From: Acidimicrobiia bacterium
GTDB lineage: Bacteria > Actinomycetota > Acidimicrobiia > Spongiisociales > Spongiisociaceae
Direction of reading: 5' to 3'
Length of the DNA: 64,000 bases
Assembly: GCA_009841075.1 (NCBI GenBank)
Contig: VXMP01000068.1
Span: forward strand, 1-64,000
Each line of letters begins with the position of its first letter. Position 1 is the first letter of the stretch. Of the stretch, positions 15,592-58,568 are shown one piece after another. A program made the translations under genes and the position numbers. The notes beneath the pieces are model-generated. The model saw nothing but the letters and a program-made list of their open reading frames with translations, was not told where the DNA came from and searched no databases.

Positions 15592-15692
15592 CACGAACGA
15601 GGCGCGGTTTTTGTCACACCCGACTTGCATAATTAGATCACCTGGCCGGACAGGAGTTAGAAAACCGACCAGGAAAAAGGAGGAAACGAAAA

Positions 15693-16649: not shown

Positions 16650-17709
16650 ACCTGTCCCACACGGATCGGATCATCTCGTCGATCAGGTCTTGTCGCTGGT
16701 CAGGGTGGAGGAAGGCCGCTTCCATAGCGTTCCGTGTCACCTGTTCAACCTCCCGTCCTGACCAGCCGAAGGCCCGACAACACCGACCCAGCTCCCGGGT
16801 GAGGGTGGTGCCGCTCATCAACCGATTGTCGGTATTCACCGTCACCCGGAACCCGAGATCCAACAGTTTTCCGATCGGGTGGGTCCCGATGGAATCCACG
16901 GCACCGATATGAAGGTTGGAGGTAGGGCATTGTTCCAGGACCAAACCACGGTCCCGAACCTCGGCAGACAGCGATCCCAGGGTCCCGTCCGGATGGATGT
17001 CGTCTGTGATACGGATTCCGTGGCCGATCCGATGGGCACCGCAGGTTTGTACCGCATCCCGGATCGAATCAACCCCGGCGGCTTCTCCGGCGTGAATGGT
17101 GAAGGGCATTCCGGCCCGGCGGAGAAGGTCAAAAGCGGCCAGATGGCCGGAGGGCGGAAACCCTTCCTCGGCACCGGCAATGTCAAAGCCGACCACACCC
17201 TGATCCCGGAAGCGAAGAACCAGCTCGGCCATTTCCAGACTCCGGTTGTCTGTTCTCATCGCACAGATCAACACACCCACCTTTATATTTCGTCCGGAAC
17301 TGCCGTCCTCAAACCCGGCCAAAGCCGCCCGGACTACCTGGTCGGGCGATAAACCTCCAATCGTGTTCAACTCGGGGGCAAACCGAACCTCGGCATAGAT
17401 CACCCCGTCATCGGCCAGATCCTCCGCGGATTCGGCGGCCACCCGGTAGATGGCATTGCGGGTCTGCATTACCCCTACCGTGTGGCGGAACATCTCCAGA
17501 TACAGGCCAAGATTACGGCGGCGGGCACCGGCCTGGAGATGGGTGGCCAGTTCATCCTGGTCACGGGTGGGGAGCCCGGTGTAACCAGCTTCGTCGGCCA
17601 GGTCGATAATGGTCGCCGGACGCAACCCCCCGTCCAGATGATCGTGCAGTACCACCTTGGGGAAGGCCGACAAATCCTCAAAGCCAGGAGCGAAATCGTC
17701 GGAACCCAT
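16639..17709 (-). CDS. add: Adenosine deaminase
   Basis: PKVVLHDHLDGGLRP, TIHAGEA, RIGHGIRI, EQCPTSNLHIGAV, VNTDNRLMS. Confidence 0.93.
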   Translation of the reverse strand: MGSDDFAPGFEDLSAFPKVVLHDHLDGGLRPATIIDLADEAGYTGLPTRDQDELATHLQAGARRRNLGLYLEMFRHTVGVMQTRNAIYRVAAESAEDLADDGVIYAEVRFAPELNTIGGLSPDQVVRAALAGFEDGSSGRNIKVGVLICAMRTDNRSLEMAELVLRFRDQGVVGFDIAGAEEGFPPSGHLAAFDLLRRAGMPFTIHAGEAAGVDSIRDAVQTCGAHRIGHGIRITDDIHPDGTLGSLSAEVRDRGLVLEQCPTSNLHIGAVDSIGTHPIGKLLDLGFRVTVNTDNRLMSGTTLTRELGRCCRAFGWSGREVEQVTRNAMEAAFLHPDQRQDLIDEMIRSVWDRSTG

Positions 17710-17754
17710 CCCTCCAGGCTACCTAAGGCTCAAACCCTTGGATTAGGCGGAGGT

Positions 17755-18067
17755 TCAAGGCGCTTCGGGAACGTTTTTTTGCGTTCTTGAAATTAGGGGT
17801 TGAAAATGTCCCGGACTCATGATACGTAGGGGGTTGCCAAGCACCGAAGGCCGGGTAAAGAGGTAGGTATCCCGATCGGATCCCCGGCCCCAAGGGAACA
17901 TAAACGTATGGAGCGAACAGCCGAACCGCAGTCTCCCGGCTTCAGTCCGGGCATGGTTGACCACGCTCCGAATCAGGTGGTGTGCGGCGGGGGAGGGGAA
18001 CCCGGCGAAGCTGGGCGGCGTGTGCCGTTTTTTGCGTTCTTGTGAGTGTTTTCCCTGGTTATAGGTG
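17755..18067 (-). repeat. Dispersed structured intergenic element, copy A (candidate ncRNA/MITE-like)
   Basis: Nearly identical over most of its length to 58185-58497; homologous to the + strand at about 26281-26600 and 45520-45870. Confidence 0.85.
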
Positions 18068-18240
18068 GTTTCTACGAACCTGAAGCTGTGAGCGTTTTAG
18101 GTGAGTTGGTGAGGAACTTAGGTTCAGGATGTTAACTGGTGGGCTGTGAACCTTAGCTTCAGGGAAGCGGGCGGGCGATCAGGGATCTCGATTCGGAATA
18201 GGTCAATTCGCTATTACCAAGAGGGGTCAGATATGTCGGT

Positions 18241-19104
18241 TTACAGACCTTTGGGATGCCAGACGGTTTTGATCTCGGTAAAGGCGGCAATCATATAGGG
18301 ACTCTGGGCCTTGTCCCAGTCGAGCTTGGTCCGAGGAGGACGAACCACCCGTTTGGCCCCCCCGGCGGCAGCTTGTTCGATCTCCTCCATTTGGCCTGGC
18401 TCCGCACCGTAGGCATCAACCGCATTCACGTCCAGATGAGAGGAAAGATACGGCACCATTCCGTCTTTAGGGCCGGTCAGTATGTTGACCACCCCCCCGG
18501 GCACATCAGCCGTGGCCAAAGCTTCCGCCAGGGCAATCGCCGGGGTGGGCCACTGCTCGGAAGCCAGTACCACCGCGGTGTTGCCGGAAACAATCACCGG
18601 TGCCAACCGTGACACCAAACCGAGCAGAGGAGACGACTCGGCCGCAATAATCCCGACCACCCCGGTGGGTTCAGGGACCGAAATGTTGAAGAACGGCCCG
18701 GACACGGGGTTGAGGTTCCCTAACACCTGGGCGAACTTGTCGGCCCAACCCGCATACCAAACCAGGCGATCAATGCTGCCTGCGACCTCCCGTCGCGCCC
18801 CGGCGGAGCCGACCCCGAAAAGCCGAATCGCCGCGTTGAAGGCCGCCGCCCGATCCTCCACCATCTCCGCCACCCGATAGAGGATCTGCCCCCGGTTATA
18901 GCCGGAGCGGGCCGCCCACCCGGACTGGGCGCTACGGGCCGCTCGAACGGCCATACGAAGGTCCTTGCGGGTGCCGGCCGCTACCCGAGCCGCTATTTCG
19001 CCTCGATGATCCAGCGCCGGATAGGATCGACCCGACTCGGACCGGGGAAAGTTCCCGCCGATGTAAAGCTTGTAGGTCTTGCGGACCTCTAGTCGGCTCA
19101 CCAT
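18241..19104 (-). CDS. Aldehyde dehydrogenase-family protein lacking the catalytic half
   Basis: N-terminal ALDH homology (LYIGGNFPRSESGRSY.., SVPEPTGVVGIIAAESSPLLGL); ends without a catalytic Cys domain; probable ATG 19104. Confidence 0.8.
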   Translation of the reverse strand: MVSRLEVRKTYKLYIGGNFPRSESGRSYPALDHRGEIAARVAAGTRKDLRMAVRAARSAQSGWAARSGYNRGQILYRVAEMVEDRAAAFNAAIRLFGVGSAGARREVAGSIDRLVWYAGWADKFAQVLGNLNPVSGPFFNISVPEPTGVVGIIAAESSPLLGLVSRLAPVIVSGNTAVVLASEQWPTPAIALAEALATADVPGGVVNILTGPKDGMVPYLSSHLDVNAVDAYGAEPGQMEEIEQAAAGGAKRVVRPPRTKLDWDKAQSPYMIAAFTEIKTVWHPKGL

Positions 19105-22882: not shown

Positions 22883-22930
22883 TCATGGCCGGAAGACCAG
22901 ACCGCGAACCTGACCGCGAAACACGGGAAA

Positions 22931-23287
22931 GAAGCCAAAACCGCAATCTTCGGGCCAAAGGAAGGTAACGAATGAGCGACCGAAACAGAGACGACGATTT
23001 TGAGATGGACGAAGCAACCCGGCAACGTCTCGCCGCGAAATGGCAGTGGGTTCCTCCGTACACCGGAGAGGAAGCTGAACGTGTAGCCGCTAACTGGCAG
23101 CGGTGGCGGGAATCCGGTTACACCGATAAAGAAGCCGAAGCCGCAATCTATGGGCCAAGGGAAGATGATGAATGAGCGACCGAAACCTCAAACCGCTTGG
23201 AAGAAGAAACACGGGGACGTCTTGAGGCGAAATGGCAGTGGCCTCCCGATCCGGCTAGTGCTCCAGAGTATCCAGATCGACCGTAAG
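22931..23287 (+). repeat. Decayed tandem repeat, about 200-bp unit
   Basis: 22931-22986 and 23131-23186 are about 84% identical (hand aligned) at exactly 200 bp offset; a second block 'gcgaaatggcagtgg' repeats about 192 bp apart. Confidence 0.7.
22972..23175 (+). CDS. Small charged hypothetical protein (67 aa)
   Basis: ATG ORF preceded by GGAAGG; MSDRNRDDDFEMDEATRQRLAAKWQWVPPYTGEEAERVAANW. Confidence 0.5.
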   Translation: MSDRNRDDDFEMDEATRQRLAAKWQWVPPYTGEEAERVAANWQRWRESGYTDKEAEAAIYGPREDDE

Positions 23288-26280: not shown

Positions 26281-26600
26281 GCCCTATAAACTGGGTAAAC
26301 ACCCTACAGAATCGCAAAATTCGTACACCTCGCCCGGCTCCGCCGGGCCCCAGCCCCCGCCGCCGCCTCCGAAGAAGGAGCGTGGCCGGCCATGCCCGGA
26401 CTGAAGCCGGGAGACTACTGATTGGCTTTCGCTCCATACGTTTATGTTCCCTTGGGGCCGGGGATCCGATCGGGATACCTACCTCTAACCCGGCCTTCGG
26501 TGCTTGGCAACCCTCTACGTATCATGACTTTCCGATAATTTCAACCCCTAATTTTGGGAACGCGAAAAAAATCCTGAAGCACCTCAAATCACCTAAACGG
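26281..26600 (+). repeat. Dispersed structured intergenic element, copy B (homology with copy C continues to about 26665)
   Basis: Shares CTATAAACTGGG, CCCGGC..GCCGGG hairpin, GGAGCG..CGCTCC, CCATGCCCGGACTGAAGCCGGGAGACT, GGGGCCGGGGATCCGATCGGGATACCTACCTCT..ACCCGGCCTTCGGTGCTTGGCAACC with copies A, C and D. Confidence 0.85.
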
Positions 26601-26826
26601 ACGGTCGTGTCTCCCTCGGTTGTAGCAGGCCGAAAGACCGATTCAAGGAGTTCGTGGTGAGACAAATCGGGGGCTTTTCCGAACGAATCCTGGGTTTTCT
26701 CGCCCCTCCAAGGTTCACCGGAGATGGAGGTTGATCCGGGTAATATACCGGATACCGGTAGGTTCGCCTGTACCTTCCCCGTCATCCGCCCGAGAGGACT
26801 TTTGGTTGGTGATAAGTCAAGCTTCG

Positions 26827-37361: not shown

Positions 37362-40300
37362 TCAGTCGTTGTCGATGATGGTGCCGGTGGCGGTGGCGTT
37401 GTCGGCTATTACGGCACCGTCGGCTTCTGTTAACTCGATAACGAGGGTCTCGTCTCTCTCCCGTAAACGGTCGTCTCTGACGTTCACACCGGTTGTGGCC
37501 CTTGTCCAACCGGCCCAAATCGTTACCTGACCTATGCTGCCCCAATAGTCCAATCCATTGACGGCCGTGCCCGAAAGAATCCTAAAACGAACCGTAACAT
37601 CCTGCTCTGAAGGTTCGCTCAGCGTAACCTGGAACTCCAGTAGCGAGAGGAACCCGAACTCTCCCTCCACAACTGACCCGTCAGCGACCGACACCACAGG
37701 CAACCCCGGCTGTAGCGGGTCATCATTATCGGCAACCTCAACCGTGACCGAACCCTGCGTGGCCGACACCGTATAACCAGCCCGTCCGTTGACTGTCACA
37801 GTCACCGACCCGTCCAGCTCATCGGTGGTGTCATCAGAAGTCGAAACCGTCACCGTCGCCGTGCCGCTGATAGGAACCGTCACCGACCGTGAACCCGTAG
37901 ACACACCAAAATCACCCACCTGAGTGACCGTCACCGTAACCGACAAAGGCGCAGACGGAGCCGGGTTGGCGGTGACCGTAAACGAAACATCACCACCCTC
38001 CACGACCCCAGCCCCCGCCGTCACACTGATCTCCGGTGTCACAGGCAGAGGAACATCATCATCCGCCACAACAACAGTGGCAGTGCCCTGCGAAGAGGAG
38101 ACGGTATAGCCGCTGTAGGCGTTGACCGTCACAGTCACAGACCCGTCAGTTTCGTCGGTGCTGTCATTCGACGTCGAAACCGTGACGGTGGCTGTGCCGC
38201 TCGTGGGGACGGTAACCGTCCGCGAACCGGTAGAAGTTGCGTAGTTACCCTGCTGGCTGACCGTAACCTTCACCGAAAGCGGAGCAGACGGGGACGGGGA
38301 GGCGGTAACAGTAAACAAAACATCACCGCCCTCTGTGATCCCACTACCCGCAGTGACGCTGATTTCAGGTGTCACAGGCGGCGGAACATCATCATCCGCC
38401 ACAACAACAGTGGCAGAACCCAGCGAAGAAGAAACCGTATAACCGGAACCCCCGTTAACCGTAACCGTCACAGACCCGTCAGTTTCATCCGTGCTGTCAT
38501 CCGACGTCGAAACCGTCACCGTCACGCTCCCAGTAGTGGGTACGGTGACCGTGCGGGACCCCGTGGATGCACCATAATCCCCGTTTTGGCTGACCGTCAC
38601 CGACACCGACAACGCCGACGTAGGAGCGGGATCAGCCGTAACCGTAAACACCGCATCACCGCCCTCGGTGATCCCGCTTCCTGCAGTCACACTTATCTCT
38701 GGAGTGGCAGGCGGTGGGTCGTCGTTATCTGCCACATCAACCGAAGCAGAACCCTGCGAAGACGACACCGTATAACCAGAGCCCCCGTTCGCTGTAACAG
38801 TCACAGAACCGTCAGTCTCATCCGTACTGTCATCAGAAGTCGAAACCGTCACCGTCGCGGAGCCGCTCGTGGGGACAGTCACCGTCCTCGTCCCAGTAGT
38901 AGCCCCGAAATCACCGGTCTGGGCAACCGTCACCGACACCGACAAAGGTGACGAGGGTGCAGGACTGACCGTGACCGTAAACAAAGCGTCCCCGCCCTCA
39001 GTCACCCCACTACCGGCGGTCACGCTCACCACCGGAGTCGCCGGCGGCGGGGTGCCCTCCAAACACTCCAACGCCACCCTAAACCGAGACCAACGCCCAT
39101 CACCCAACTCCAACACCACAGCCTCAGCCGCCGACAACGGCGTGTTAAACGTACCGGTCACAGCCGACAACGCAATCCACGCCCGCCACCAATCATTCCG
39201 CTCCTTACGATTCGCTGCCGTATTCGCCAACCCATCATGATTCCCCTTCGCCTCCAAACCCAACGCATCCGTATCCCCACACCCCAACACCGGCGGAACA
39301 TCATCATCCGACACAACCACACTGTCTGTCCCCTGCGTGCTGGACACCGTATAACCCGACCCACCACCCACCGACACCGACACAGAACCATCCACCTCGT
39401 CCGTACTGTCATCCGAAGTCGAAACTGTCACGGTTGCGGAGCCGCTCGTGGGGACGGTAACCGTTTGCGAACCCGTAGCCACCCCAAAATCACCGTCTTG
39501 GACAACCGTCACCGACACCGAAAGCGGGGCCGTAGGTGCAGGACTGGCAGTAACCGTAAACGAAGCATCACCACCCTCGGTAACCCCACTACCCGCAGTC
39601 ACACTCACCACCGGAGTCACCGGCGGCGGGGTACCCTCCAAACACTCCAACGCCACCCTAAACCGACTCCAACGCAAATCACCCGACTCCAACACATTTG
39701 CCTCCGCAGCCGTCAACGGCGTGTTAAAGGTGCCGGTCACAGCCGACAACGCAATCCACGCCCGCCACCAATCGTTGCGCTCCTTCCGGTTCGCCAAAGT
39801 ATTCGGCAATCCATCATGATTGGCCCGTGCCTCCAACCCCAACGCATCAGTATCCCCACACCCCAACACCGGCGGAACATCATCATCAGACACCACCACA
39901 GAAGCCGAACCCTCCGACGAAGAAACCGTATAACCCGACCCACCGGCAACCGTCACCGACACCGACCCGTCGACCTCATCCGCATCGTCATCGGAAGTAG
40001 ACACGGTCACGGTCGCGCTGCCGCTCGTCGGTACCGTCACCGTCCGAGAACCCACCGACACACCGAAATCACCCACCTGGGCCACCGACACATCAACCGA
40101 CAACGGCGCGTTTGGTGCCGGGCCGGCAGACACCGTGAACACCGCATCGCCGCCCTCGGTCACTCCCGTACCCGCGGTGACGCTCACCTTCGGCTTCTGC
40201 GACGACGTGTCAGAAAACACCCAGGGACGGGCTTGTTTGATGGCCAGCGTGTTGTCGGCTGTGATCTTGAACTCGATCTCGATAGCGAACCGGTCACCGT

Positions 40301-45428: not shown

Positions 45429-45519
45429 AGACCCCCCAAAGCGAACCCGGGATGGGAAGGGGCGTCTTAATATCCCCGGATCTGGCAGGTATTGGATCTT
45501 AAAGAAACACACTATAAAC

Positions 45520-45870
45520 TGGGAAAATACCCTCTCAAAAGCAAAAATCTACGCACGCCGCCCAGCTTCGCTGGGTTCCCCTCCCCCGCCTCGCACCACC
45601 TGATTTGGAGCGTGGTCGGCCATGCCCGGACAGAAGCCGGGAGACTGCAGCCAGAAGACTTGCTGTCGGCTGTTCGCTCCATTGGTCTATGTTCCCTCCA
45701 GACTACATTCCCTTGGGGCCGGGGATCCGATCGGGGTTTTCCTACCTCTAACCCGGCCTTCGGTGCTTGGCAACACCCTACCTATCATGACTTTGGTACA
45801 TTTTCAACCCCCTTGTTTGAGAGCGCTGAAAAACGGTGCCGAAGTGCCTCAAATCGCCTCCACGGACAGC
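45520..45870 (+). repeat. Dispersed structured intergenic element, copy C (homology with copy B continues to about 45925)
   Basis: Same ordered motifs as copies A, B and D, with insertions CAGCCAGAAGACTTGCTGTCGGCTG and TCCAGACTACATTCCC. Confidence 0.82.
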
Positions 45871-46035
45871 GTCGATATTTCGGTTGGTGGGCTCCGAAAG
45901 CCCTGTTCAAGCAGGTTATTGATGGCCAACCGGGACCAATTGCGAATGAAGCCCAGGTTTCGCACCTGCTTAGGTTCGGGACGCTTTCAGCGGTGTGGTG
46001 AACCTTGGGTTCAGGTGGGGTAGCCTTTGGTTGGA

Positions 46036-58184: not shown

Positions 58185-58497
58185 TCAAGGCGCTTCGGGA
58201 ACGTTTTTTTGCGTTCTCGAAATTAGGGGTTGAAAATGTCCCGGACTCATGATACGTAGGGGGTTGCCAAGCACCGAAGGCCGGGTAAAGAGGTAGGTAT
58301 CCCGATCGGATCCCCGGCCCCAAGGGAACATAAACGTATGGAGCGAACAGCCGAACCGCAGTCTCCCGGCTTCAGTCCGGGCATGGTTGACCACGCTCCA
58401 AATCAGGTGGTGTGCGGCGGGGGTGGGGACCCGGCGTAGCCGGGTGAGGTGGGCGGATTTTGCGATTTCTGTGAGTATTTCCCCAGTTTATAGGCGG
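58185..58497 (-). repeat. Dispersed structured intergenic element, copy D
   Basis: Nearly identical to copy A; even the chance ORF MVNHARTEAGRLRFGCSLHTFMF.. is identical in both. Confidence 0.85.
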
Positions 58498-58568
58498 TAT
58501 TATGAGCTTTCTGGTCAGGGTCTTTATCGGTGACGCTGTGAACCTTAGGTTCGGGGAGGCTAACGGGT

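Follow-up and report, generated by a model that had tools for sequence, protein, structure and literature searches.

A structured intergenic element that occurs four times in a 64,000-nucleotide stretch of Acidimicrobiia DNA (hereafter the window) is best explained as belonging to an undescribed, high-copy family of stand-alone small RNA (sRNA) genes that probably act in trans and spread by duplication. We give this reading a probability of about 0.78, and it is quite likely that the element is a functional sRNA gene family. Judged from sequence comparison, the strand of the RNA, its conserved promoter- and terminator-like anatomy, its structure, the selection on it, its copy number and the existence of homologous subtypes can be regarded as established. 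To our knowledge, it is rare for a bacterial sRNA family to number more than a handful of copies. If the reading is true, a count of 36 or more in a 2.3-Mb genome would place these loci among the most amplified bacterial RNA genes known other than those for tRNA and rRNA. The family would also provide a testable case of G-quadruplex RNA function and of how an RNA gene family spreads and is homogenised in a bacterial chromosome. Because the family is absent from Rfam, annotation pipelines leave its loci blank.

Copies in the window and in its genome

The original prediction had placed four copies of the element in the window, and all four are present there (A to D; Table 1). The blocks that it described, namely CTATAAACTGGG, a CCCGGC/GCCGGG hairpin, GGAGCG..CGCTCC and GGCCGGG..CCCGGCC, were found to be common to the copies in an alignment. 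Copy C is a longer sub-variant carrying two insertions, as in locus L020. The genome that contains the window (G000; 2.3 Mb in 90 contigs) yielded at least 40 blastn matches to copy A, down to an E-value of 4e-45, which include at least 36 beyond the window copies; a covariance model counted 36 copies. These E-values and this copy number exclude a chance origin of the repeats. The true copy number probably exceeds the count because several contigs (C3, C7, C11, C20, C26, C33, C44 and C51) terminate within an element copy.

Table 1. Coordinates of the element and its predicted parts in the window
Feature	Position	Strand	Remarks
Copy A, whole repeated unit (promoter side, RNA, terminator side)	17755..18110		blastn
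Copy A, promoter-like	17800..17828	+	TTGAAA 17800-17805; 17-nt spacer with TGTCCC; TACGTA 17823-17828
Copy A, predicted ncRNA, GCCAAGCACC start to TTTTTTGC tail, ~206 nt	17830..18035	+	bounds from promoter and T-tract positions; R1 match 17832-17999 +, 110.5 bits
Copy A, G-rich arm GGTGGTGTGCGGCGGGGGAGGGG, predicted G-quadruplex	17975..17998	+	
Copy A, terminator-like hairpin and T-tract	18013..18038	+	sole terminator-like site within 17650-18250
Copy B, whole repeated unit	26283..26584		blastn; match to copy A in orientation +, E 6.6e-78
Copy B, promoter-like	TTGAAA 26544-26539; TACGTA 26521-26516	-	
Copy B, predicted ncRNA, ~201 nt	26314..26514	-	R1 match 26512-26348 -, 101.4 bits
Copy B, G-rich arm	26367-26349	-	
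Copy C, whole repeated unit	45503..45849		blastn; match to copy A in orientation +, E 4.3e-73
Copy C, promoter-like	TTGAAA 45807-45802; TAGGTA 45784-45779	-	
Copy C, predicted ncRNA, ~237 nt	45541..45777	-	R1 match 45775-45577 -, 88.9 bits
Copy D, whole repeated unit	58185..58498		blastn; match to copy A in orientation -, E 8.6e-132
Copy D, promoter-like	TTGAAA 58230-58235; TACGTA 58253-58258	+	
Copy D, predicted ncRNA, ~204 nt	58260..58463	+	R1 match 58262-58429 +, 110.7 bits

Strand, fold and ends of the RNA

Which strand encodes the RNA? In an alignment of 34 diverse copies (A1), paired positions vary as G-U in 123 cells and as A-C in 16 when read on the strand opposite to that chosen in the original prediction, whereas the latter strand, in its own best structure, gave 23 G-U and 44 A-C cells. 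Since G-U exceeds A-C only on the opposite strand, the RNA is encoded on the complement and the earlier orientation was wrong. In other words, the RNA lies on the plus strand in copies A and D and on the minus strand in copies B and C. The ATACGT/ACGTAT helix that was thought to close the structure did not hold up: of 29 own-genome copies, only 9 have all six of its pairs, and 17 form at most four. The swap in copy C that had looked compensatory is not evidence for this helix because one of the arms doubles as a -10 box on the opposite strand.

The RNA folds such that a helix, P1, closes its ends and hairpins P2 and P3 lie inside, with 93.4% of the cells paired. Two-sided changes were seen at nine pairs compared with 2.2 in shuffles, a control that ignores the relatedness of copies, especially of the near-identical ones in G000. 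P2 covaries independently in a more distant subtype (type 2), in which four pairs had two-sided changes compared with 1.4 in such shuffles; here P1 and P2 were placed by hand, and RNAalifold mispaired the G-run. A search of Rfam 15 with the window returned only a tRNA, and the element loci gave no match even at E<=1. The absence of an Rfam match, covariation above shuffles and selection on the element (see below) bear out the earlier view that this is a structured RNA outside the known classes.

On the RNA strand, a promoter-like sequence (TTGann-N17-YAnnnW, with TGTCaCA in the spacer) precedes a folded RNA of ~200-240 nt that begins with GCCAAGCACC; towards the 3' end come an invariant GGNGGNGGNGGGGGNGGG block and then a GC hairpin that runs into a T-tract, for which TTTT(C)GCG is the usual sequence. 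All four window copies carry TTGAAA-N17-TA(C/G)GTA upstream of the RNA. Copies from clade B, the sister clade of G000 (G001-G009), have TTGAAA-N17-TACGTT or TATGTT in matching register, and distant type 2 copies have TTGAnT-cTGTCaCA-N10-CATAnT in the promoter position. The pattern TTG-N17/18-YAnnn(T/A) was present in 26 of 26 type 1 copies of G000 (1.8 expected from shuffles, which likewise ignore relatedness), 49 of 117 type 1 copies of clade B (3.5 expected), 23 of 27 type 2 copies (0.9 expected) and 18 of 28 copies of a third subtype, type 3 (3.2 expected). Each copy, by its sequence, has promoter-like and terminator-like signals of its own, as is expected of a multicopy small RNA gene. A strict promoter scan found none at the G000 copies, whose -10 sequence TACGTA is off consensus. 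Because this sequence lacks the final T and was rejected by the strict scan, promoter activity appears less certain for the window copies than for their relatives. A promoter-like stretch without the RNA, TGTCACA-N10-CATAAT, lies upstream of an ordinary gene at 15596-15647 (+) of the window (a partial match, E 0.0015, to model R2, which was built from type 2 copies); given this stretch, the TGTCACA promoter motif may be general in the lineage.

The 3' arm of P1, which consists of GGNGGNGGNGGGGGNGGG, is the most invariant part of the RNA. In type 2 copies, the G positions of the G-run are conserved at 0.96-1.00 and its spacer letters at 0.59-0.81. A two-tier G-quadruplex (G4) pattern occurs in 170 of 170 type 1 and type 2 copies, 30 of 30 type 3 copies and ~2% of shuffled type 1-2 sequences; for this count, type 1 copies were collected by a CCCCCRCC anchor, the G-rich block as read from the complementary strand, and type 2 copies by the model without an anchor. 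ViennaRNA with G4 terms, whose G4 energies are approximate, favoured a G-quadruplex in all 23 sequences tested. Thus, the G-rich GGNGGNGGNGGGGG block of the 3' arm is predicted to form a G-quadruplex. A separate candidate, complementarity of GGAAAGGTGGTGG to the anti-Shine-Dalgarno sequence of 16S rRNA seen by eye, was set aside: a U-U mismatch interrupts the pairing, and G000 copies have lost the complementarity.

How would such an RNA act? Transcription would start from the sigma70-like promoter and terminate at the GC hairpin and T-tract, giving a folded ~200-nt RNA in whose 3' arm P1 pairing would compete with the predicted RNA G-quadruplex. The RNA would be abundant and would act in trans through its G-rich or G4 arm, most likely by protein binding, with the many copies supplying RNA dosage. 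We put somewhat less than even odds on the G4 arm being the working part of the RNA. A broader proposal is that these RNAs represent a new class, G-quadruplex-tailed and trans-acting, with dozens of functional copies that are recurrently re-seeded and self-propagating, limited to two Acidimicrobiia lineages and with several subtypes per genome; as a whole, this proposal is rather doubtful.

Distribution of the family and history of its sites

All nine same-genus genomes sampled contain many copies, at ~70% identity. A scan of named records for GGAGCGTGGTCRRCCATGCCCGG returned 87 stretches, mostly under titles of Acidimicrobiia MAGs, with one bin named only 'bacterium' and one 'Acidobacteria'. 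The matches look largely sponge-associated: we take several of the bin names to resemble those of sponge metagenome bins (compare PMC8163846), and the records do not state a source. There was no element match in IMG/VR, phages or plasmids, and no match for the exact 21-mer GGGGCCGGGGATCCGATCGGG in the genome contig collection. Literature searched by topic contained no description of the family.

With model R1, distant copies were recovered from further genera within the same taxonomic family and from genus g51 of a second one. Model R2, for which E-values are rough as for the other models used here, matched 19 of 395 class genomes, confined to family f1 (genera g1, g2 and g3) and to f3/g51. 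The other ~376 class genomes sampled had no R2 match and a sample of the phylum had no credible one; a phylum-wide match in G715 (30.5 bits, promoter part missing) was treated as chance. The R2 counts, which overlap with type 1, were 31 in G000, 63 in G006, 47 in G010, 27 in G011 and 48 in G117, and in addition to type 1, G000 holds six or more copies of type 2. Distant copies retain the promoter, GCCAARCACC, P2, AGGGATCA and the G-run. Type 3, found in G011, shares the promoter layout and the G-rich tail but differs in its middle part.

Evidence of selection comes from clade B, where orthologous copies occupy identical intergenic sites across the nine sister species. In orthologous sets, identity was 88% for the RNA core, 76% for the promoter, 74% for the terminator and 56-61% for the flanking spacer, while wider windows including genes were 60-78% identical. 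The 88% identity of the RNA compared with 56-61% for the flanking spacer indicates that the RNA is under selection. The element had the same orientation in 367 comparisons of orthologous sites (361 single and 6 double), which are not independent because some loci were fetched twice, and it was never inverted within the clade. Seven comparisons lacked the element, a number that under-counts empty sites since loci were fetched by element presence.

Similarity between copies was 88% within G000, 87% between clade B orthologues, 81% between clade B paralogues and 62% when G000 was compared with clade B, and the G000 copies group as one clade. Orthologue similarity may derive partly from gene conversion, as copies are homogenised within a genome. 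Few sites are common to G000 and clade B, and the element is inverted at the shared intergenic regions, three of them recognised by DNA flanks and a fourth by one flanking protein, which we read as independent acquisition. We infer that the family duplicates and that its sites turn over slowly, being stable over shorter times. A candidate empty site, L190, is a deletion that left the promoter side behind. No consistent neighbour gene lies beside the intergenic copies, the own-genome context having been read in stretches around matches.

Rival readings, known systems and neighbouring repeats

Could the element instead be a mobile but non-autonomous DNA repeat (MITE, REP/REPIN, ERIC or BOX-like) with palindromes that give RNA-like folds, any RNA being incidental? 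Its dozens of intergenic copies, the closeness of the G000 copies to each other compared with those of clade B, and the inverted orientation at the few common sites, which suggests independent insertion, would all suit such a repeat. However, in an alignment with flanks both ends carry GAACGCGAAAAA-type blocks in direct orientation, neither terminal inverted repeats nor target duplication were seen, and no precise empty site was found, the sole candidate being the deletion described above. Sites fixed across clade B without inversions, an RNA more conserved than the adjoining spacer, and the retention of promoter, G-run and terminator in subtypes that are otherwise little alike also argue against a mobile repeat, which we consider improbable. 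The mobile element of the original prediction survives in part: lineage homogenisation and the turnover of sites between G000 and the sister clade agree with it, but the fixed positions within clade B do not. A coding element was rejected as only 389 of 2779 indels were multiples of 3.

A role in cis, as a bidirectional terminator or 3'-end stabiliser for neighbouring genes, is more improbable still. Although the element has a GC hairpin and T-tract and 24 of 28 left neighbours in G000 point into the terminator end, gene orientation differs by lineage (only 17 of 30 in G006), the element is inverted at shared sites, and type 2 copies are found in all gene arrangements; furthermore, a terminator would need neither a conserved upstream promoter nor an internal fold. 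The cis-regulator proposed earlier is likewise unlikely, given that the unit brings start and stop signals of its own and that both its neighbours and its orientation vary. A riboswitch or cis leader would be expected to lie consistently 5' of related genes in the same orientation; no such placement was found among the diverse neighbours, which occur in all arrangements. There is very little probability that the copies are stand-alone guide RNAs (omega RNA, bridge/seek RNA) for a nuclease or recombinase directed by RNA. The structure of the RNA, its length of ~200 nt and its variable P2 loop, where identity between paralogues is 0.45, would be compatible with a guide, as would the IS110 genes of four relatives, but the TnpB zinc-ribbon PF07282 was in none of five genomes with the control positive, G000 has no IS110 transposase (PF01548), and the alignment has no hypervariable segment at either end. 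Between orthologues, too, the P2 loop is poorly conserved (0.62); a locus-specific guide loop was rejected, as the loop that varies most is also the one least conserved among orthologues. These results leave the earlier suggestion of a guide-RNA-like locus unsupported.

The preferred reading, a family of stand-alone sRNA genes, has partial parallels. LhrC-type multicopy sRNAs exist in a handful of copies. Like the present family, they comprise several near-identical sRNA genes with a promoter and terminator each, as in LhrC of Listeria (PMC4132741). The present family differs from them in its 36 or more copies, predicted G-quadruplex tail and lineage homogenisation. In Neisseria, transcription of the pilE G4-associated sRNA is coupled to a G-quadruplex. 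That system (reviewed in PMC4412290) also combines a small RNA with a G-quadruplex, which here is predicted only; pilE is a single recombination site, whereas here there are dozens of loci with the G4 at the RNA 3' arm and no antigenic cassette. REPIN (PMC3116915) and ERIC/RU (PMC2229807) resemble the element in being dispersed, intergenic, structured and high in copy number. In contrast to them, the element is larger and asymmetric, has promoter-like and terminator-like signals and no inverted ends, and appears to combine positions stable across species with selection on the structure of the RNA. The candidate structured RNAs that comparative genomics has yielded (PMC2864571, PMC6429828) share a conserved fold, an unassigned function and discovery by sequence comparison, but the element stands apart in lying outside the Rfam 15 families and in its unusually high copy number and narrow lineage.

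Other repeats were observed near the element. A second, unrelated hairpin repeat of ~98 nt with CTAG/GAG ends and a GTTGGCCCGCG..CGGGCCAAC core occurs at L203:5971-6070, L176:1467-1572 and L176:4231-4306. Compared with L178, L203 contains it as a precise insertion; the repeat also interrupts the ncRNA promoter in L052 and looks like an active MITE. Palindrome arrays (AACCTGAGGwTCAGGGCGTCATATATGACGCCCT) adjoin the 3' end of the RNA in clade B (L045:1280-1450, with similar flanks) and, in weaker form, are seen at 18147-18160 and 58539-58552 of the window. The clade B arrays move along when the RNA unit is inverted and are possibly part of it. A shared CCTCGGTTGGAG..CCGAAAGACCGATTCAAG block, possibly another repeat, flanks several G000 copies at their promoter side (window 26600-26660 and 45875-45930). 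Elsewhere in the window, short stretches spaced ~200 nt apart form a tandem duplication where no gene was called (22928-23246), and six ~300-nt repeats, spaced by 333 or 579, lie within a 1766-aa reading frame (37715-40171).
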